The position numbers and the translations under genes are program-made. A DNA stretch of 64,000 bases, from the NCBI RefSeq assembly GCF_964204865.1, contig NC_135250.1:6634001-6698000 (forward strand), written 5' to 3'. The notes beneath the pieces are model-generated. The model had not been told where the DNA came from, did not search any database, and saw only the letters and a list, made by a program, of their open reading frames with translations. Position 1 is the first letter of the stretch, and every line of letters begins with the position of its first letter. The stretch comes from Styela clava. Taxonomy: Eukaryota > Chordata > Ascidiacea > Stolidobranchia > Styelidae. This document shows, in pieces, positions 38,778 through 63,900 of this stretch.

Positions 38778-40874
38778 ATGCCAACCTCATTATCATATCA
38801 TAAGTTGTAATCTTATATCACGCGTCTCTCACCCACGTTTAGATGCCTGGCGCCTCGTACGTTTGCCTATAGCAGTTAACCCCCAAATGTACCCCATTTC
38901 ATGTTAAAAACATGAAAACAAAGTTAATTTTTCCCAAAATTCGAACAAAGACTCCCGTTTCAATCAAATTAATTCACTTTTAGGAAAATAACAAGTTTCG
39001 TCCGGCCATTATCAAATTGAAATATATTTTATCACGATATTTAAACACTAATTATGTATATGTAAGTTCCCATCCGTACGATATTCATAATTACGCATAT
39101 TGAGATAATAGGAGTTTCTGTTTATAACGTGAATCACGAGCTCACGTTTACAGTATTTAATTAGATTTAGGATCAACGTATAAATACGACTCAATATCTT
39201 TCAAAGTTAAGCTAGTCTGGATAAATGTTTTAAGATTTGTATTCTGTGTATCGTGCAAATCTGAGAATAAAATCAAACAGAGTTTTCTAAAGTTTCTTCA
39301 TTAACGTGGGCATTGAAGCTGAAGGGTGAACGGGCGATTGGCAGTTCTGAGACGGTCTACGAAATAGCAATATACGGTGACATCACATTCATTTACCAAT
39401 TATATATGCTATATGCCTATATCGCAAAGTCATAACGGAACTTACCCAAAAAACACCAGCTAATGTGACAAAGATTCAGTTGAAGTCGAGATACCCAGAT
39501 GGAAATATTGCGGTAGAACTTTCCACCAAGACGTCCCATAGAATATGCTCTACATATAAAGACTTTGGCCATCATCCCACCAATAGACTATCAATACTAC
39601 ATTTGAAGATAGCCTAATCGTCACTATACCCCTACATTGAACTGCGTACATTGAACAGCATATTCAAATATATCAAAAATATACTAAATTAGAAAATGTT
39701 TCAAAGATCTTGCTTTCCTCTGCAGTCTCCGAGAGCTTGGCTAAATTATGATATAGCCTTCAATTCAAGAACAATTGCAACCTGAATTTAACTTAACGAC
39801 TGTCGCGCGTTTTTGGTATTTATTGAACTTGTAAGTCGGTAATACTGACAAATATTTTATATATCTCATCATTGGCGGTGAAAATAGTTGGTCTTCATCG
39901 ATAGTTTGAATATATTGCTGCCAAGTTGTATTATGTGCAACTTTAAAAATATGATTATTGTCACATATTTAGTCATTGTAGAAATACAAATGGGGTGGAA
40001 GCACGCTCAATATAACAATTATCATCCCCATATAATAAAACATGATTAAATTTTAGTTTGATTTTTAAAACAATACAGCGATGCTCAAATATATGGACAC
40101 GAAATCCAAAACAAAATATCAATTAATCTCCGCGTTTCGCATAGCGTCGGGTTTCGGATGCAGCCGTCACGGTTGGCGGATTAAATACCGTGTTCCTATA
40201 AGAACAAAAATATAGCAAAATTTTGGATAAAATATCAGATCTCATAAAATTCATAGAAAATTCAGGAATAACTAAAAGTAATAAATAGCCTTCTAGCAAA
40301 AAATACAATCTTTATTACCCACTTAAAATGTCAAAGTCAAGCGATTTTTTTCATGCCACCAAGAAGAAAAATACCAACAAGTACAAAATAGCAAAAAGAC
40401 CACAGGTTCACTTCTTGTCTCTTCATTAACATTGTTTTATCGCAAGTTTGAATTCACTGTGACTCATACTTTTCCAGTTCACTGATTTTATGAAATATAT
40501 GACTCGGAACCATTCAATGCTCGGGACTTGAAACAGCATCGAATCATGTAAAAATAGCACTTCGATATAATTAGAAGGAAATTCAACTCATTTATATCGC
40601 ATGTTTAGTGAAGGGTCTCAGTCTAGGTTAAATAATCCAAAAGTTAATTTAAATTTAGAAGCTATCCGAAAATATATATACGGTAATAATCACTAGATAT
40701 CGCACTTTCGGAAGTTTTCGGATTTCGGGATGGTCTCCAACGGCTGACTGCCCTTCTCGTTTATTCGTGAGCGTGGTAGTTGGTTTGGTTTTGCGCACTT
40801 GTTCGTATCTGCTTGAATCGCTGTTACAATTCTGTTAAATTTTCTTCATATCACTCTATAAGTATCAAAGAAGT
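38778..40874. other. Intergenic region upstream of 14-3-3, no gene seen
   Basis: No coding exon, RNA gene or repeat could be supported. The last 150 bp before the 14-3-3 ATG should contain its 5'UTR and promoter; no convincing TATA box was seen. Confidence 0.35.
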
Positions 40875-41642
40875 ATGAGTGTAAAATCAAGAGCAGATTA
40901 TGTCTACAAAGCCAAGCTTGCTGAACAAGCAGAGCGATATGACGACATGGTAAATGCGATGACAGAAGTGGTAAAAATGGACGACGAATTATCAGTGGAG
41001 GAACGGAATCTGCTTTCGGTTGCTTATAAAAATGTAATTGGAGCCCGTCGTGCGTCGTGGAGAATAATAACTAGCATAGAAGGAAAAAATGAATACGAAG
41101 CTGATAAAAAACACAGCATGGCCAAGGAATACCGAGTGAAGGTGGAACAGGAATTACAAGACATCTGTACTAAAATTCTGAAAGCCTTGGATGACCACCT
41201 CATTCCTAAGTCTAAAACAGCTGAATCCAATGTATTTTACTACAAAATGAAAGGTGATTACTATCGTTATCTGGCAGAATTTATGCCTGGCGCTGAGAAG
41301 AGTGCCGAATCAGAAAATAGCCTTGCGGCTTACGAAAAGGCACAAGAAGCAGCATCTAAAGATTTGGACGTTACTCATCCGATTCGCCTTGGTCTTGCTC
41401 TAAATTTTTCGGTGTTTTACTATGAAATTTTAAAACAACCAGATATGGCGTGTAAGCTCGCAAAGTTAGCTTTTGATTCAGCTATTAAAAAATTAGATAC
41501 TCTCGCAGAAGATTCTTACAAAGATTCTACCTTGATAATGCAGTTGCTTCGTGACAATTTAACGTTGTGGACCTCTGATGACAATTCTGAACAGCCATCG
41601 GAAGGTGGTGATGTCGACGATGCACCGCAAGATGAAGCTTAA
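40875..41642 (+). CDS. YWHAE: 14-3-3 protein, epsilon type, intronless
   Basis: A single open frame encodes 255 aa, the normal 14-3-3 length, covering all nine helices. The phosphopeptide-binding set is intact: Lys52, Arg59, Arg131 and Tyr132, in [17 protein letters not shown] and [15 protein letters not shown]. The family signatures [11 protein letters not shown] and [19 protein letters not shown] are present. The epsilon-like [20 protein letters not shown] supports the subtype. 14-3-3 dimers bind phosphoserine/threonine partners in the cytoplasm. The acidic tail ([12 protein letters not shown]) is lineage-specific. The coding region has no intron although every other host gene in the window is split, so it may be an old retrogene; no poly-A tract or target duplication survives. 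The reading frame is undisturbed, so it looks functional. The symbol denotes orthology group only. Confidence 0.95.
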
Positions 41643-47659: not shown

Positions 47660-49648
47660 TTAATACTGAAATTCAAAATATCTCAGATTATGATTTGAAA
47701 ACATTAGCTCCTCAGCAGTATCAGGTGATAGTCTGTTTCGATGAGGCGTATAAATATTTCCGCCAATGCTAAATAGTCTTTCACTTTCGACAGAAGATGG
47801 TGGGCAGGAAAGATATTTGTTTGCCAGAGAACTCAAGCAAGGAAATATCGATTTATTTTGTTTACACCAGTATATGGGATTCTCGTCTTTTTCGATTCGG
47901 CGACATGAAACATATCTCTCAATCTCTGAGAATAATGTCAAAGATTCGCTTCTAGACGATTTCTTATTAGTGGCATGATCCTCAGTTTCCATCACAAGAC
48001 AATCATAACATTTTTCGAAATCCAAATCACTAAAGTCGTCTTCACGCGGAGGCAAGTTACCGTTATCACTTCCCGACTCCGTCCCACTTGAGCATGATGT
48101 TTCACTTTCGCCTGTATGAATTGCAGCGTCTAATTTGCGTTTCTCGAGCGTCTCCAACAATCTTTGGCGGATGGTACCTCGATGAAACTTCGAAGTTTCG
48201 ATAAGGCGTTCCGCCCCAAAAAGGACGTCTTTATGCCTTGGGTCGAGGAATGTTGCGAGAATACAATTGTAGCTATCCATGTACTTTTGAAATCTTAGTT
48301 TTGCCGAAGTTTTGAATGAAGTCAGTGTCCCACCAAGACCATGAAATCTCGGTCCAGAAATTGCTACATCCAACAAGTGCATGATATATTTAACCTGTGG
48401 AATTATTTCTGATATCGTACTTGAACGAGCACTCAGTCGAACAGTAACTTTGTGGAATATTTCAAGGAGTTTCACTAATTTACCCATTAGATTCCACTTA
48501 TTAGCATCGATTGTTGGTAAGTTAGGAGTATCGAGTACATAATTTGCAATAGCTACCTTTTGCTCAAACATTCGCTCCAACATGAGGTAGATACTATTCC
48601 ACCTTGTCGGAACGCTGTTGAGGAGCTTATGCTGCGGCAAGCCATGCTGCTTTTGAAGTTTGGTGAGTTTGTTATTAGCCAGCGCTGAATGACTGAAGTG
48701 ACTAACGATTCTTTTGCATTGTTCAAGCAATTCTTTAATTACATCTTGCTCCAAAATAGAATCCTTAAGGACTAGTTGGAGCGTATGCAGGAAACAAGGC
48801 AGAGCATCATAGCCCGTGTCCGCTATACCTCTCACCATATTTGATCCGTTGTCTCGCGCAAACACGTGAACTTTATAGCTGGGAATGTGGAATTCATGTA
48901 ATACCTGATAGATAATATTTGTGATATTTGCAGAAGTGTGAGAATCCGGAAAATGAATTGTGCGTAGCACAATGACGTTATCTTGAAAATGTTCATCGAT
49001 CGTATGGGCAGTAATGCTTAGAAACGGCGTGTTGTTTATACTTGTCCATATATCGCTGGTAAAACTTATATTTTCTGAATGCTGGACGATCATTTGAACT
49101 TTCTCTCGAACAGATTTATAGATTGACGGAATCACAGTTTCAGAAAAATATTTGCGACTAGGGATATTGTATCTGGGTTTTGTATGGCCCATTAAACGTT
49201 TAAAGCCCACGTCTTCAACTATTGAGAACGGCTGACAGTCCGTTGCTATCATTTCTCCAATTAGTCGGTGTAAAACCTTGGCTTCAGAGCTGTTTATGTC
49301 CCACAATTTCGATCTTGAAAAACCTTCTTCTACGCTGAGCTGTGATTTACGATCGCGGTTTGTTTCTCCAGATTCCGACTGAAATCGTTTAAAGTACGTC
49401 TCAACACTCGTACCTGTGTGCCTTTTGGCCTCTTCCTCTCGAATTCTTCTCTTTTCTGCCTCGAAATCTTTTGGGTGGTAAATTTCAAGGTGCTTTTTCA
49501 AATTTGAGGTGGTAAACGATTTTGAGGATTTCCCGCCTCTGGACACAATGCCACCACACAGCTCGCATTTAACCTTACATTCATCTTCTTTTACAACTTC
49601 AAAGAATTTCCATACCACACTACGCGATGGACCAGCCATTTTCGCCAA
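47660..49648 (-). CDS. hAT-family transposase (BED zinc finger, ZBED type)
   Basis: An uninterrupted frame of 662 aa, full length for this family. The N-terminal BED finger spans about residues 9-60, with Cys28, Cys31, His53 and His58 (CELC..HLEIYH). An RNase H-like core follows with acidic candidates in FTSDIWTS and FARDNGSNMV. The C-terminal dimerisation block contains WCKQNKSIFPCLSSLANKYL, SSVESERLFSIGG and HRNRLSPDTAEELMF. It cuts and pastes the host element, acting in the nucleus. No stop or frameshift interrupts it, so it could still be active. It is not a domesticated host ZBED gene, because it lies within recognisable ends and target duplications. Confidence 0.95.
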   Translation of the reverse strand: MAKMAGPSRSVVWKFFEVVKEDECKVKCELCGGIVSRGGKSSKSFTTSNLKKHLEIYHPKDFEAEKRRIREEEAKRHTGTSVETYFKRFQSESGETNRDRKSQLSVEEGFSRSKLWDINSSEAKVLHRLIGEMIATDCQPFSIVEDVGFKRLMGHTKPRYNIPSRKYFSETVIPSIYKSVREKVQMIVQHSENISFTSDIWTSINNTPFLSITAHTIDEHFQDNVIVLRTIHFPDSHTSANITNIIYQVLHEFHIPSYKVHVFARDNGSNMVRGIADTGYDALPCFLHTLQLVLKDSILEQDVIKELLEQCKRIVSHFSHSALANNKLTKLQKQHGLPQHKLLNSVPTRWNSIYLMLERMFEQKVAIANYVLDTPNLPTIDANKWNLMGKLVKLLEIFHKVTVRLSARSSTISEIIPQVKYIMHLLDVAISGPRFHGLGGTLTSFKTSAKLRFQKYMDSYNCILATFLDPRHKDVLFGAERLIETSKFHRGTIRQRLLETLEKRKLDAAIHTGESETSCSSGTESGSDNGNLPPREDDFSDLDFEKCYDCLVMETEDHATNKKSSRSESLTLFSEIERYVSCRRIEKDENPIYWCKQNKSIFPCLSSLANKYLSCPPSSVESERLFSIGGNIYTPHRNRLSPDTAEELMFSNHNLRYFEFQY

Positions 49649-54693: not shown

Positions 54694-57678
54694 GGGGAGA
54701 TGCGGGTGACTTGAGCCACGAGGATACTTGTTCCACCCCCAAAATGAGCAACATGCATTACTAATAGAATGCTCGCGCGCCCTCTGTTGGTAGGTTGTGT
54801 CATTACTTTATATTTGGCTGTGAGAAGCAGACGTTCTGTAGCTCTGGTGGAAAACAGTTAATGTAAAAGCCGGAATCGCAGCAAAAAGTGAATTTCATGG
54901 TTTCAGGTAATATGTTTACTATTAATAATATTACAAGTCGTGGTTTAATCACATTAAGTCATTGTGTAGTCTATGTTGTGATGCTCTAATGGAGACTATT
55001 GCAGCGCACGTCCAGTAGTCATTCGGCAGTAGCGGAGCTCAAATGGGAAGATGGCCGATCATGGGAGGGTTGATCCAGTGGTCACCAGGAGGGTTGCTCC
55101 GTGGCTCAACGCTCCTGCATTGGATATATTTTTCATCACATTTTTTCTTTACCAGACGACGCCGCAAACATACAAAAGAAAATCAACCCGTGGAAGTGAT
55201 CCGGCATTAGTCGAAAGGGCGACAGAAGCGGTAAAAGAGGGATGCAGTATTAGATCGGCAGCGAGAACATTTGATGTGGACCGAATGACGCTTAAGCGAC
55301 ACATGGATAAACAAAAACATGACCCGCTTGGTACAAGCGGCTACAAGAATTGCAAGCTCAAGAATATGATATTCAGTCCTGAAATGGAAGCTGAACTAGC
55401 TAGTCACATCAAAACACTTGCAGCAAACTACCATGGCCTATCCAAAGATAAATGCCGATGTTTGGCGTATGAGTTTGCAGCAAGAAACGGTGTTGATGTG
55501 CCACAAAATTAGAAAATCAACAAAAAATCTGGTCAAGGGTTTTGGCTTGGATTGAAAGCACGCGATAACCTTGCAATTCGAAGTCCAGAAGCTACTTCAT
55601 TAGCCAGAGCAACGGCGTTTAATCGCCATACAGTGGGACAGGACAGTTCTACAAAAACCTTGCCAAAGTAATGGACCAACACAAATTCGAGGCACAAGAC
55701 GTATATAACATCAACGAAACAGGGTGCCATACGGTGCAAAAGCCTGAGAGCATTGTTACGGAAAAAGGGGTTAAGCAGATTGGTTCTGTCACATCAGGTG
55801 AGAGAGGTGAGCTGGTAACCGTAGTCAATGCGATCAACGCTGCTGGTGGATTTATTCCGCCCTACATGATATTTCCTCGTGTCAATTATCGTAATTACTT
55901 CATACCAGGTGCGCCACTGGGATCTGACGGTGCGGCCACCAGATCAGGTTGGATTAACGAGGAAACGTTTGTAAACTATCTCGATCACTTCATTAAGCAT
56001 ACACGCTGTATACCCGACAGAAAGGTATTGCTCATCTTAGACAATCACGAGGCCCACGTTTCACTGACAGCTGTTGACAAGGCAGAGGCGAACGGATTTG
56101 TGGTGTTGACCATCCCTCCACACACGTCCCACAAACTCCAGCCTTTAGACAAGACTGTTTATGGATCATACAAACGAGCCTACGCGCGCGCGATGGATAA
56201 TTAGATGAGGTCCAATCCGGGTAAGACTGTGTCTATATACGATATAGCTCATTTGGTGAACGAAGCTCACATCTGCGCATTTGTACCGCGTAATATCCTA
56301 GCTGGCTTCCACAGCACTGGTATTATGCCTTTCAACAGCGACGTATTCTCAGATGAAGACTATGCGCCATCTTCAGTTACAGATCGCGAAAATCCAGTTT
56401 GCTCGGCAGTAGACAATGTTGAAAGCGTGTCAGGTTTACAGAGAAATCCCGATACTCCCACGAACCAAAAAGATAACACAATTCAATCAGCAACTGGCGT
56501 TGAGAGCAATACTGGTTTGATTAGAGCAGTGCAGACTACCAACGCGGAGACTCCTTATGTGTCTCCGAGTGATATACTACCTTTACCGAAAGCAGGGCCA
56601 AGAAAGGTGAAAGCTTCAATATGAAAAAAGGTAACACAGGAATTTTGACAGACACGCCAGTTAGAGATGAAATAGCAGCAAAATCAGTGGCTAGGATAGA
56701 AAAAAATAGAGCAAAGAACTTCGGTCGGGCTAAAAAATGCTCTTTGCAAACAAGAAAACAGTTAGAGTGAGGGTAGCACCATCCGGATGTAGCACTTCTT
56801 CGAGCGATAGTGAATCTAACGAGAATGTATTGTGCGACGATACTGATGACTCAGAGGAGGAAGATCAAAATATTATCGAGGGCGATTTTGTCATAGTCAA
56901 AATTAGTGGAAAATCTCGAATTGTTCACTACGTCTCAAGAGTTGATGCTTTCGAAGGAGTGTTTCTCCGCCGGGTTTTAAGCGTAAATGGCCGAACTACT
57001 TTTATTTTGGATGTCGAAGATGAAGCACTTTGGTCGAAGAAAGACATTGCAAGAAAGTTACCAATCCCTAGCATTATTGGAACTTCACGTCGCACCCAGT
57101 TCACGTTCTCTTGTGACCTCGATGAATGGAATCTTTGATTTTCACATACTCTGTCACACGCTATTTCAACTTATGAATAAACGTTTCTTTTCGATTTCTA
57201 GATGCTGCCAAGGTGTAATAAGAAGGCTTCGGTGGTATAATTCGTTTCCATTCTGTATTGACTGACAAAAATAAATAAGATTATAGATGCATTGCCTCCT
57301 ATTTAAGATTAGCTAAGTTAAAGTTGCCCAGTTGCCTCACGGTTCCGATACAGAAGTATTTGCATCTTACATTTGTGAAAGATACTCTCCCGATTGCAAC
57401 TTAAACGCTACTTCCCGTGCCATTCTGCATGTAGCGGCTCAACTCTCATCAATGGTATGCACAACTCTCCTCAACATGCAGGAGACTTGTGACATCTGAC
57501 ACCCCTTTTTAAAACTGGCATAACTCAGAAACAGGGTCGGTTGGATTAAAAGAGACATAACTGTAATATAGCAGAGGTAATGACCTTCGGATGATATGAG
57601 CGTCTTCAAATTGCTACGAACGATTGAGGAGATATAACTAAATATATAAAAAATGGCTCATCTCTCCCGCATCTTCCC
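54694..57678 (+). mobile_element. Defunct pogo/Tigger DNA transposon
   Basis: 2985 bp with terminal inverted repeats of about 25 bp: GGGGAGATGCGGGTGACTTG at the left and, on the other strand, GGGAAGATGCGGGAGAGATG at the right. TA dinucleotides flank both ends (54692-54693, 57679-57680), as expected for the Tc1/mariner-pogo superfamily. It carries a broken transposase. Confidence 0.9.
55051..57138 (+). pseudogene. pogo/Tigger transposase pseudogene
   Basis: The N-terminal part (55051-55512) shows a helix-turn-helix DNA-binding region (SIRSAARTFDVDRMTLKRHM). The DDE core lies at 55671-56204 (LLILDNHEAHV and KLQPLDKTVYGSYK retained). The C-terminal parts are at 56205-56624 and 56737-57138, the last being Ser/Glu-rich and then a conserved tail. 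Damage: TAG at 55510, a frameshift near 55640, TAG at 56202, a stop at 56622 and a further frame change. The first catalytic Asp of the usual DETG motif reads Asn (NINETG). It cannot be active. Confidence 0.9.
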
Positions 57679-57991: not shown

Positions 57992-60900
57992 TTAATATAT
58001 TTCATCAATAGCATTTATTTCGGCAAGTTCAGATAAAACATCCCAAACTGGTACATTGTTTGTTCTCGTTTGCATGGCAATTTCCGACCATGCAGATTCC
58101 GGGGAATAGATAAAAATTGAGCTCTGTCTGCAAATTTCATTTTCTACTAGAGCTATGAGTTCGTGTGTATCTCTCCAAATGACTGAACACTTTTCTCTGG
58201 GATAGTGTGAATCGATGAACCGATATAGGTCAACTTTATTGAAAAGTTGAACTTTCCAGCATCGCTGATCACCGTAATATGAAATTTCGTCGGCTTTTCC
58301 TTCTTTTTTCAAAATTTTACGAAATATTTCTCGTTGGAAGTCGCTGTCTTTTGTCATAAATTTGATCTAGAAATGGGATATTCAACCTATTTTTATAATG
58401 CACTGTGGTGAATAAGTTCATATACACGACGACAAGTGCGGCGGTTGAAAAGATATATACATATTTGAGAAAATGGGGCAAAATATAGATGCATATAATT
58501 AACAATTAAAACAGCCAAAAAAGAATAGAAATGAAAGAAACTTGATGATTTGCGTAAAGAGAATAAATGAACATTAGTAGAAATTATTGTTACAGCTATC
58601 CGTCAAAAAAGAAGGAATGAAAATCACTTGAAACTGGTAAGTGATCAATGACTTATCTGGTGGGGCATAAATTTTTTACAAGCTTTGTCGAGGCCACCAA
58701 TAGAACTTGATTGTGAATCTAAATAAATTAATCTAGTACTTACCGTTTCGTAGTCGGTTGTCGCAGTTGCTAAATAGACGTGCACGACTTGAGTCACATC
58801 ACAATTGGAATATTTCGAAACCTGTACGAATAACCGAAATATAGTATACTGTACTAAATACAGCGAGAGCCTATTGTAGATTCGGTTGTTATTTTATTTT
58901 ATATCCGGTCCAGAACAGATCTAGTTCAGCATATCACAAATGGCTATCAATTATAAGTTGAAATGACAGTGAGAAATCTTGTTCATGCTCATACCGTGGG
59001 GCTATGCCAGTGGTTTCTCCGTTTGAAGAATAAATTAATTATCAGGTTGGGAAATTGACTCACTAAAACTAAATTTTATTTTGTTATGAGTTTCAAAGCG
59101 CTCCCCCGTGCCATATCAACGATCACCTTAGGCTATCGATTTACTGATTCGGATTTTTTCTCAGACACATTCAAATGAATAATTTCCTAATATTGTAATG
59201 TAATAGAATTTACGAAAGTCGTTGATTACCCGTGAACATACTTACTCCACGCGAAGAAGTTATTTATGATTACCATTGTTCGACACGGAGCTGTGGGAGA
59301 ACTCATACATATTTTTTCTCATATTCAGTTTAAAATTCTTTACCTTGCTAGAGGTGAAATTTTTGCTTGCTAAGATAATGACTTCTGAGAGGTCACGAGA
59401 TTCCACTTTTTCTATTTGGGCGCAAAATGGATATTTATGGAAGCAAATAAATTCATGATTGTATCTGAAAAACAAATTCCTCATCGAGTTAACAATTTCA
59501 ATTAAAATTTTGTTTGCCATGGGGAGTTGCATTGTATGGTCGATCAATGAATTGGAAGTTAGAACTAACTACTAACTACCTTCCTATTTTTGTCATTTTT
59601 ATTGAAAAATCAAAAAAGAAAAACATCTACTCCTTCGTCATTCGTCTTCATGTAGTTCTCGTTCTAGATTATTCTCTTTGGCTGAATGCTAACGAAAAAA
59701 AATAACGAAAAACACAGAGGACGGAAATTATGATAAGTTGGAGCCAGAGATTGACCGATATCATAACTTCTCGTTCATATCAAATATAATCGATAACATC
59801 GATTATTGAAATGGACGATGCTATTCTATCATGTTGAAATGACCAATATCGACGATTATGACAACCTATAATATATATATATATTGGTAGCTAACTTAGC
59901 AATTTCTGTATTTGCCTCGATAAAGAACACATACTAACCTCCAGTGCATCGCTATATATTCATCACCTTGCATAACCTTTCCAATGAATTCCTTTGCTAT
60001 TTCACGAATATATCTTGGTCTTTTCGTAAATATTTCAACCAGCTTGAATTTTGTTCGACTATTTGCTCCGATTAAATCTTCATGTGTGAGAGAGTTGATA
60101 TCATTGATTGCCTTGTCCAATATTGCTTGATCAAAGCCATCAAAATCATTTGTGAATGTTTTGTATGTATCTATTAAAACCGCACACGGCAAGTCCGACC
60201 TGCGTTATAAAATTTAAGTCTTCATTTAAAAAATGTTAATAATTCAGCAAAATAATAACCACAAATGAATAACACAAATGAATGAATATAACGATCAGTA
60301 GAGGTTGCGCGAGACTAACTCCCAATCCTTTCTCTATGCCTTTGCGCTAGTGGATCCGTATGCATGTAATGCAAGGATGCTGTAGCAGGAATAAAATACT
60401 ATAATATGCAATTCAAGAGTCCTGCTGCACACTAACACAAATATATTTCTGTAACGTTTCGTCTGACCAAAATCAGACTTCCTCAGACAAGCAGTTTACA
60501 ACAATGACAAGAAAAGAGCAATCATGCAGTTTAAATATGGCGATAAATAAATTTGTTTGAAATTAATTGTGAGCAAACAATGAAAAAAACAATTATTGAT
60601 ATTCAGACACAGATTGCGAAATAAAAAAATGCAATCGGTTCTCAGCATGGAATATTTGTTCCGCGGCGTGCTTGATTTCACAATAAGTTTCACTAGAACA
60701 TTTATCAATGTGTTCTAGGCTCAGATCTTGATAGCCAGGGTCCTTATAATGTGGTTCTTTTAAAGGCGTTGAATTCTTTTTAGTATTGCTTCTAAATTCT
60801 TTTCTTGTGGTAGTTGTCGAGTCCGGAGTTTGGCAGGATCCATTCGGATACAGAAGTCACGCGAAAAAGGCTAATATAACGATCAGTAGAGGTTGCGCGA

Positions 60901-63900
60901 GACTAACTCCCAATCCTTTCTCTATGCCTTTGCGCTAGTGGATCCGTATGCATGTAATGCAAGGATGCTGTAGCAGGAATAAAATACTATAATATGCAAT
61001 TCAAGAGTCCTGCTGCACACTAACACAAATATATTTCTGTAACGTTTCGTCTGACCAAAATCAGACTTCCTCAGACAAGCAGTTTACAACAATGACAAGA
61101 AAAGAGCAATCATGCAGTTTAAATATGGCGATAAATAAATTTGTTTGAAATTAATTGTGAGCAAACAATGAAAAAAACAATTATTGATATTCAGACACAG
61201 ATTGCGAAATAAAAAAATGCAATCGGTTCTCAGCATGGAATATTTGTTCCGCGGCGTGCTTGATTTCACAATAAGTTTCACTAGAACATTTATCAATGTG
61301 TTCTAGGCTCAGATCTTGATAGCCAGGGTCCTTATAAAGGCGTTGAATTCTTTTTAGTATTGCTTCTAAATTCTTTTCTTGTGGTAGTTGTCGAGTCCGG
61401 AGTTTGGCAGGATCCATTCGGATACAGAAGTCACGCGAAAGAGGCTAATATAACGATCAGTAGAGGTTGCGCGAGACTAACTCCCAATCCTTTCTCTATG
61501 CCTTTGCGCTAGTGGATCCGTATGCATGTAATGCAAGGATGCTGTAGCAGGAATAAAATACTATAATATGCAATTCAAGAGTCCTGCTGCACACTAACAC
61601 AAATATATTTCTGTAACGTTTCGTCTGACCAAAATCAGACTTCCTCAGACAAGCAGTTTACAACATATTGAATTGCATATTATAGTATTTTATTCCTGCT
61701 ACAGCATCCTTGCATTACATGCATACGGATCCACTAGCGCAAAGGCATAGAGAAAGGATTGGGAGTTAGTCTCGCGCAACCTCTACTGATCGTTATATTA
61801 GCCTCTTTCGCGTGACTTCTGTATCCGAATGGATCCTGCCAAACTCCGGACTCGACAACTACCACAAGAAAAGAATTTAGAAGCAATACTAAAAAGAATT
61901 CAACGCCTTTATAAGGACCCTGGCTATCAAGATCTGAGCCTAGAACACATTGATAAATGTTCTAGTGAAACTTATTGTGAAATCAAGCACGCCGCGGAAC
62001 AAATATTCCATGCTGAGAACCGATTGCATTTTTTTATTTCGCAATCTGTGCCTGAATATCAATAATTGTTTTTTTCATTGTTTGCTCACAATTAATTTCA
62101 AACAAATTTATTTATCGCCATATTTAAACTGCATGATTGCTCTTTTCTTGTCATTGTTGTAAACTGCTTGTCTGAGGAAGTCTGATTTTGGTCAGACGAA
62201 ACGTTACAGAAATATATTTGTGTTAGTGTGCAGCAGGACTCTTGAATTGCATATTATAGTATTTTATTCCTGCTACAGCATCCTTGCATTACATGCATAC
62301 GGATCCACTAGCGCAAAGGCATAGAGAAAGGATTGGGAGTTAGTCTCGCGCAACCTCTACTGATCGTTATATTAGCCTTTTTCGCGTGACTTCTGTATCC
62401 GAATGGATCCTGCCAAACTCCGGACTCGACAACTACCACAAGAAAAGAATTTAGAAGCAATACTAAAAAGAATTCAACGCCTTTAAAAGAACCACATTAT
62501 AAGGACCCTGGCTATCAAGATCTGAGCCTAGAACACATTGATAAATGTTCTAGTGAAACTTATTGTGAAATCAAGCACGCCGCGGAACAAATATTCCATG
62601 CTGAGAACCGATTGCATTTTTTTATTTCGCAATCTGTGTCTGAATATCAATAATTGTTTTTTTCATTGTTTGCTCACAATTAATTTCAAACAAATTTATT
62701 TATCGCCATATTTAAACTGCATGATTGCTCTTTTCTTGTCATTGTTGTAAACTGCTTGTCTGAGGAAGTCTGATTTTGGTCAGACGAAACGTTACAGAAA
62801 TATATTTGTGTTAGTGTGCAGCAGGACTCTTGAATTGAATGAATATATACTGGAATTTATGATACATAAATAATTAACAGCTACGAAAATTTAAGTATGT
62901 AATATATTCGTTTATAACATCTCAACAATATTATTATTATTACCTATAATTATATTTAACGTCGTCCACACGCATGGCTCGTTTAATTTTTGCCATTCTC
63001 CGCACTGGAAATGAAGGAGGTTCACACGCGCGATCGTGTTTCTTCAGCATTTTCATTTCCGTGAAACCATCTGTACCGAGTACAGTATCATGTGTGCTCC
63101 CTAGAATCATTCCGCTTGTTTTTTTGAGATAAGAGAAAAAATTGCATTCCGCGTCTTGTTTCTGATAAAAATTTGAGCAGAAAAAATACAATCAGATTGT
63201 TCTGTTCAAAGTTTCATTCACAAATGAGCATGGTTATCGAATATCCCACTACTCTCTCAAGAGCGTTGCTGAAAACGCATTTGGTATTGGAATTTTGTGG
63301 AAATTACTAAATTAGGAAATAAAATGTCGCCTTATCGAGCGATGAATGATAACACAATTTACCTGAAATCCGACATCAAATTTCAAATAGCACAGTTCCT
63401 GCATTTTATCAACCGTAACCATAGAAACTAAGCGTGAAAGAAAGTTGAGATCAACCCTTCTTGAAGCTGGCACTTCACTTTCGTGAAACGTATCTCTGTC
63501 CATTCTATGGGGTAAAAACTGAGGAACGACAACTGTTCTATCAAATAAAAGGTATGAAATTATGACGTTAAGTGCCTAGCAAACAGTTGCCCAAAGTCGT
63601 GAGATTAGATGCCCTAATGTACGTACAATCTTTGGTCATCATTAAATTTAGGTAATTTCACCAAACGGACATGTCTCAAGATGAGTCATTATCGCAACTA
63701 ACGTGAGTCAGTTCAAGTCTAAAATCAGGTGGTTGAGTCAACCATAAGTGAAATTTCTCAATTACAGTATACGTCTTCATGCGTGCGCTATACTCGACCG
63801 GTATCAGTAAGGTATTTGCAAAATATTGTGTCTGCAACCGAATAATTAATTCTTAAAAAAAATGTGAAACTGCTGATGAATATTTTTAACATACCTATTC

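Follow-up and report, generated by a model that had tools for sequence, protein, structure and literature searches.

The stretch analysed here (the window) comprises 64,000 nucleotides of the Styela clava genome (contig NC_135250.1, positions 6,634,001 to 6,698,000; assembly GCF_964204865.1). Within it, an intron of a minus-strand gene holds a long palindromic block of repeat units, which is very probably an insertion of a non-autonomous relative of the Penelope-like elements (PLEs). The intron (60200..62943, minus strand) measures 2744 bp, has GT..AG ends (GTAATA..ACGCAG) and keeps the reading frame across, in agreement with the initial annotation of this DNA; without the block and one copy of a flanking repeat, TGAATGAATATA, it would measure 187 bp. 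The O-fucosyltransferase label attached to the gene has fared less well: a hand-joined protein matched PF10250 at E = 0.02, under its cut-off, and the identity of the host gene is uncertain.

The palindrome itself was confirmed, with inverted arms of 1173 nt each (60406-61578 and 61668-62840) separated by a measured spacer of 89 nt. The arms show 2 mismatches, and as one of these pairs (60408/62838) lies in a chance extension into the flank, the true arms differ once per about 1170 positions, at 61195/62051, bearing out their reported near-identity. Numbers preceded by u denote positions in the reference 588-bp unit (u1-588; 60285..60872, minus strand). The left arm (60285..61665, sense on the minus strand) has its outer end at a site that we term A (u582-588) and consists of this 588-bp unit, a 574-bp unit (60873..61446, minus) with a 14-bp deletion junction seen at this locus only, and a partial unit (u370-588; 61447..61665, minus) whose inner end at u370 falls in a recurrent cluster at u360-373. 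A 2-nt filler, TA (61666..61667), forms the centre junction. The right arm (61668..62837, sense on the plus strand) starts from its inner end at u457 with a partial unit (61668..61799, plus), continues with the mirrored 574-bp unit (61800..62373, plus), and ends in a truncated 588-type unit (62374..62837, plus) at a second site, B (u462-467). Read in sense, the unit order in the left arm is thus partial, 574-bp, 588-bp, and the right arm follows the same order but stops within the 588-type unit; the arms stop at different unit positions at their outer as well as their inner ends. The mirrored order of variants noted previously was found to extend to a second marker, T/C at unit position 6. The 588-bp form had been described as carrying a 14-bp insertion, but those 14 bp are present in the other fetched copies whose alignments cover the place (for example L009, L010, L012 and L016), so that the 574-bp form appears to have lost them, the deletion being flanked by TTA.

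The 12-bp direct repeat TGAATGAATATA occurs at both outer ends, bracketing both arms together. The left copy (60279..60290) shares 6 bp (AATATA) with the arm start, and the right copy (62836..62847) shares 2 bp with its arm. In a random control, a 12-bp repeat was reached in 0 of 20,000 place pairs in the window. As the block lies between two copies of this target-site duplication (TSD) within an intron, it arrived by insertion.

Each full unit contains one hammerhead-like motif of the form CTGAGGA-A-stem II-GAAACGT. The five motif places in the block (60454..60486, 61042..61074 and 61616..61648 on the minus strand; 62172..62204 and 62760..62792 on the plus strand) all read CTGAGGA + A + GTCTGA..TCAGAC + GAAACGTT. 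Scanned with a motif descriptor, the window showed no further instance; 300 random sequences matched in dinucleotide composition gave a chance expectation of 0.017 motifs per 64 kb for stems of 6 or more. Across the genome (376.6 Mb, 379 contigs), a search allowing up to 2 mismatches gave 647+656 matches, and a reversed-pattern control 0+0. The motif pattern in prokaryote and viral contig collections, and a peptide search in the viral one, gave no relatives, as expected there. The RNA of PAc, a Poseidon element from Anolis, reads CUGAGGA + U + GCC..GGC + GAAACGUC (PMC11167929), its stem pairing being judged by eye. The core and GAAACGUH are common to both motifs, and core-to-GAAA spacing is 20 nt in PAc and 19 nt in the window unit. 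Cleavage by the PAc ribozyme has been shown, but only with protein present (PMC11167929), and reviews describe PLEs as carrying minimal hammerhead variants. The likeness to PAc, together with these reviews, leads us to call the motif hammerhead-like.

The genome yielded 52 GIY-YIG matches at E <= 0.001. Those in L031, L034 and L035 lie in frames of 1771-2839 aa, in which a helicase-like stretch was noted by eye, and probably represent giant elements of another kind. At L033, L036 and L039, a GIY-YIG frame is followed downstream by the motif and unit-like sequence, L033 matching u335-577 at 83%. A further locus, L041 (C18:15230500-15238999), is a PLE with a 960-aa frame containing RVT_1 (1.5e-9) and GIY-YIG (4.1e-5) domains. 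It shares u359-570 with the window unit at 89.7% identity over 214 bp, and the region at the start of its open reading frame (ORF) matches u8-118 at 76%. L041, too, forms a head-to-head palindrome, its arms measuring 2315 bp (99.74% identity), plus a tandem copy; a 13-bp duplication, TAAAATGCAAAGA, flanks it, and it ends at u468 (site B) on the right and past u570 (site A region) on the left. The unit thus consists of a PLE pseudo-long terminal repeat (pLTR) and a remnant of the ORF start, without the enzyme genes. Within the block, no frame exceeds 87 aa, the longest unit frame has no Pfam match, and no ORF with reverse transcriptase (RT) and GIY-YIG domains was found; since the enzyme domains occur in L041 but not in the block, we refer to the latter only as a non-autonomous relative of a PLE. 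Three marks of Penelope-like elements are nevertheless present: a pLTR in common with enzyme-bearing PLEs of the same genome (L041, L033), a TSD together with inverted pLTRs and a 'tail' on one arm, and, judging by sequence alone, a minimal hammerhead motif in the pLTR. Assignment to the metazoan retrozymes was considered and rejected, given units of 588/574 bp as opposed to 150-450 bp and Rfam hammerhead models that are silent on the motif.

We compared the window with further copies in a table of 48 loci: the window, L009-L018 (from the best DNA matches to the block, 40 of 3085 candidates being scored), L042-L051 (chosen for two motifs close together, and so biased to two arms) and L054-L080 (27 motif places without a close partner, from 100 listed). 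The last set covers 14 of 15 places on contig C1, the other lying in L022, and 13 of 22 on C3-C5, namely those with the loop TTTTGG. L013-L015, L045, L049, L051, L059, L061 and L068 duplicate insertions already represented by L012, L018 or L047 and were counted with them, and the ten class-B loci L019-L028 were omitted, having the structure already seen in L018/L045/L049; among these 10, a second arm in opposite orientation shows in 3 (L020-L022, with only 24 bp in L022). Thirty non-duplicate loci were matched in both orientations, comprising 27 head-to-head, 1 inward-pointing (L054, with a weak 37-bp second match) and 2 mixed (L062 and L063) arrangements; the latter three are excluded from the counts of insertions and inner ends below. 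A TSD of 9-15 bp was found in 19 of the 27 head-to-head insertions (the window, L009, L010, L011, L012, L016, L017, L018, L042, L043, L044, L046, L047, L048, L050, L056, L060, L069 and L078), whereas duplications of 9 bp or more arose in 6 of 1090 control placements. Each of these 19 insertions has an A end on one side, placed at u576-588 once trimmed to the duplication, and a B end (u424-472) on the other, which lies within u462-472 in 16 cases; the outliers are u452 in L043, u445 in L018 and u424 in L050. Adding L041 brings the set of two-armed insertions whose TSD is 9 bp or longer to 20, and every one is head-to-head and pairs an A end with a B end; were each arm to pick its site independently, A and B being equally likely, the probability of this would be 9.5e-7. 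The same plan occurs on ten contigs. Among the first 100 motif places listed, opposite neighbours less than 1 kb apart were outward-pointing in 15 cases and inward-pointing in none; as some are copies of one insertion, these represent at most 12 distinct insertions.

Some copies have multiplied with their surroundings. L012-L015 (C14:12464000-12533500) represent one two-armed insertion in a repeat of approximately 21-kb spacing, present in four copies, the fourth with one arm only. A class-B PLE-derived palindrome gave five matches at a spacing of approximately 8.3 kb (C10:17636542-17670468 and L019) and seems to have been multiplied within a larger copied unit, with similar runs at C2:27104777-27129565. 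The class-B TSD resembles CGCTAATTTATTA in L018/L045/L049.

The centre junctions of the 19 TSD-bearing insertions are short in 17 cases, the arms either overlapping by 1-6 nt or being joined through 1-17 nt of filler. L018 has a 24-nt overlap by BLAST, and L046 a 296-nt spacer (L046:1051-1346) without a match to the unit, which resembles the captured spacers of Adineta (PMC3846280). Inner ends lie 20-281 unit positions apart (measured round the unit) in 12 of the 19 and within 13 positions in the other 7. Of the 54 inner ends contributed by the 27 head-to-head insertions, 15 lie within u360-373; the binomial probability against a uniform unit, about 1.6e-12, is too small, as loci chosen by the motif (u387) favour upstream ends and nearby copies may share descent. 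A TATTTAA sequence at u336 lies about 30 bp upstream of the cluster, a TATA-box-like spacing, and the cluster may correspond to the 5' end of the element RNA. The left arm of the window crosses three uncut hammerhead motifs on its way from A to this putative 5' end, and the template RNA was therefore probably not self-cleaved. Mutation of the PAc ribozyme left insertion unaffected (PMC11167929).

The recurrence of the two-armed plan points to an element whose copying proceeds from the two sides of a cut simultaneously. On the basis of the TSD, the plan common to 20 insertions, the pLTR held in common with an enzyme-bearing PLE and the types of junction, all read directly from the DNA, we put at about 85% the probability that a single insertion of a non-autonomous PLE relative produced the block, as two joined cDNAs, one primed at each side of the break. 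We infer that a PLE protein acting in trans would make a staggered cut, 9-15 bp apart, and that both exposed 3' ends would prime reverse transcription of the element RNA. Of the two cDNAs, one would start at template site A and one some 120 nt upstream of it, at site B; growing toward each other, they would be linked by end joining, and the product would be a TSD-flanked pair of head-to-head arms that differ in length. In the window, the template would have been a tandem multimer RNA (574-type, then 588-type), giving tandem units in both arms and hence a long palindrome. Near-exact tandem junctions (15 matches) occur in the window (4), on C8 (3, in two insertions), in the C14 group (7) and on C16 (1), and tandem junctions are also found in diverged class-B loci.

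A number of observations weigh against this interpretation. The 20 insertions were selected for having two arms and a TSD. No 9-bp TSD was found in 8 of the 27 head-to-head insertions (L055, L057, L066, L071, L072, L074, L076 and L077); only L066, L074 and L077 of these have clear A/B ends, and in the remaining five one end of the alignment lies outside both sites, at u506-541. The 27-locus motif sample comprises 14 head-to-head, 10 one-armed, 2 mixed and 1 inward-pointing loci. The A end of L041 can be aligned to the unit only as far as u570. An Rfam search called no hammerhead and returned only weak ceN33 chance matches, and the motif is one base longer than the classical hammerhead core, although this extra base is also present in PAc. 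Partner arms are mutually closest relatives in 8 of 34 arms, not consistently. Finally, several markers are confined to this locus. Allowing up to 1 mismatch, the 574-type deletion junction occurs twice in the genome, once per arm of this palindrome; C at unit position 6 is found in 2 of the 15 near-exact unit-to-unit junctions in the assembly, again once per window arm; and the 588 unit has 3 bases absent from the 9, 12 and 16 other sampled insertions covering them. No source array for the template RNA was found in the assembly, so that either gene conversion between the arms or an unsampled source must be assumed.

These markers may thus derive from one RNA of an array absent from the assembly, from conversion between the arms, or from DNA copying of this part of the palindrome; the one-RNA and conversion readings both fit a two-armed insertion. 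Conversion would make the history a version of the explanation that we prefer, with the changes of the 574-bp unit arising in one arm after PLE insertion and being copied to the other. It accounts for the locus-only markers together with the A/B ends and the TSD, and we take it as a serious possibility, if not quite at even odds, as it is needless where a single RNA, from a source array that was not sampled, templated both cDNAs, and has left no direct trace. DNA copying would correspond to the initial proposal of an inverted duplication in place, in which a tandem array inserted first and DNA repair, or template switching at a fork, later made an inverted copy of it. The confinement of the deletion and the C variant to this locus, once per arm, would follow naturally, as would the single real mismatch in about 1170 positions and the containment of the unit content of the right arm within that of the left. 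However, the TSD brackets both arms, the right arm ends at site B like other insertions, copying would need to stop exactly at the old junction, and the centre is a 2-nt filler without microhomology. Moreover, 19 other insertions (18 of the window family and one PLE with enzyme genes) have the same head-to-head plan and end regions, and we regard duplication in place as highly unlikely.

Snap-back self-priming, in which one cDNA folds back and copies itself, is also very unlikely. Self-priming on an antisense template has been proposed for Adineta vaga Penelope (PMC3846280), and the 7 of 19 TSD-bearing insertions with inner ends within 13 unit positions are in keeping with it. The 12 with inner ends 20-281 positions apart are not; four of the seven near-symmetric cases (L042, L043, L044 and L078) end in u360-373, as run-off at a common RNA 5' end would, and the difference between A and B outer ends is not predicted. 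An assembly or chimeric-read fold-back, a caveat raised initially, can be given next to no credence in view of the differing flanks, the TSD, the unequal arm ends and the recurrence of the plan on ten contigs. A foldback or terminal-inverted-repeat DNA transposon was rejected as a candidate, since it needs the same sequence at both inverted termini; here the termini differ (A, B) and the relatives of the unit are PLEs.

A stronger form of two-sided priming is that palindromic insertion is the normal product in this PLE lineage, both target strands being obligatorily primed, A and B starts being allotted one per strand, and every complete insertion consisting of two joined cDNAs; on this claim our judgement is evenly balanced. 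In L1, twin priming uses two primers at one break and yields inverted segments with a TSD, as a variant outcome. The two parts of such L1 insertions come from different stretches of one RNA, whereas both arms in the window family copy the same 3' stretch.

Among known PLEs, EN+ (endonuclease-bearing) Penelope elements of Adineta vaga have direct and inverted pLTRs, head-to-head, with 8-10 bp TSDs, an optional 31-bp 'tail' on one inverted pLTR and spacers of captured DNA (PMC3846280), and a curation guide mentions inverted pLTRs and short 3' extensions (PMC8969392). The window family resembles the former in its inverted head-to-head pLTRs, TSD, one-arm tail and captured spacers, but the Adineta elements carry an ORF between the pLTRs (PMC3846280) where the block has tandem pLTR-type units without RT or EN, and the equivalent of the 31-bp tail in the window family is about 120 bp. 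For PLEs, inverted ends with a one-arm tail are already on record; the A/B pairing, tabulated here for 20 of 20 two-armed TSD-bearing insertions, is the new part. Our literature search did not turn up the rule that every insertion combines the two kinds of start, though it may still be in print. The PAc protein cleaves and extends both target strands in vitro and uses two adjacent internal RT starts downstream of the ribozyme (PMC11167929). The window family shares with PAc the hammerhead core, AT-rich sites and tandem copies and, on the preferred interpretation, would also share two internal RT starts downstream of the motif and the cutting and extension of both target strands. The PAc evidence is in vitro, and that paper reports no start-site difference between strands, whereas the window family has A on one arm and B on the other; RT starts at +111-118 of the ORF in PAc (PMC11167929), while the putative starts in the window family lie, by our arithmetic, about 70 and 190 nt downstream of the final core base. 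Metazoan non-LTR retrozymes (150-450 bp units, canonical type I hammerhead, circRNA; PMC7229834) are likewise small, non-autonomous tandem repeats of low GC with TSDs of >4 bp, but differ from the window family in its 588-bp unit, PLE-type minimal motif and inverted arms.

PLE transposition was described in 2024 as relatively little understood (PMC11167929). With approximately 1300 motif copies, and a good share of the sampled ones two-armed with clean TSDs, the start, stop and joining of cDNAs can be read from the DNA of this genome. A single retroelement insertion can yield a kilobase intronic palindrome without later rearrangement. If two-strand priming is indeed obligatory, perhaps hundreds of priming events on both sides of a break would be recorded in this genome, and PLEs would give rise to hairpins in introns. 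At the present locus the long intronic hairpin anticipated by the initial annotation does follow from the sequence: in the predicted fold of the intron RNA, 1170 bases of one arm pair with the other arm (minimum free energy -2244.6 kcal/mol). As the host gene is on the minus strand, this RNA would carry two antisense and then three sense motifs.

Elsewhere in the window, a 662-aa open frame (47660-49648, minus) has by eye the look of a hAT/ZBED-type transposase, and Pogo/Tigger-like transposase pieces lie at 55033-56624 (plus), with a DDE_1 match (6.7e-18) for 55623-56204. A single open frame at 40839-41642 (plus) appears, by eye, 14-3-3-like.

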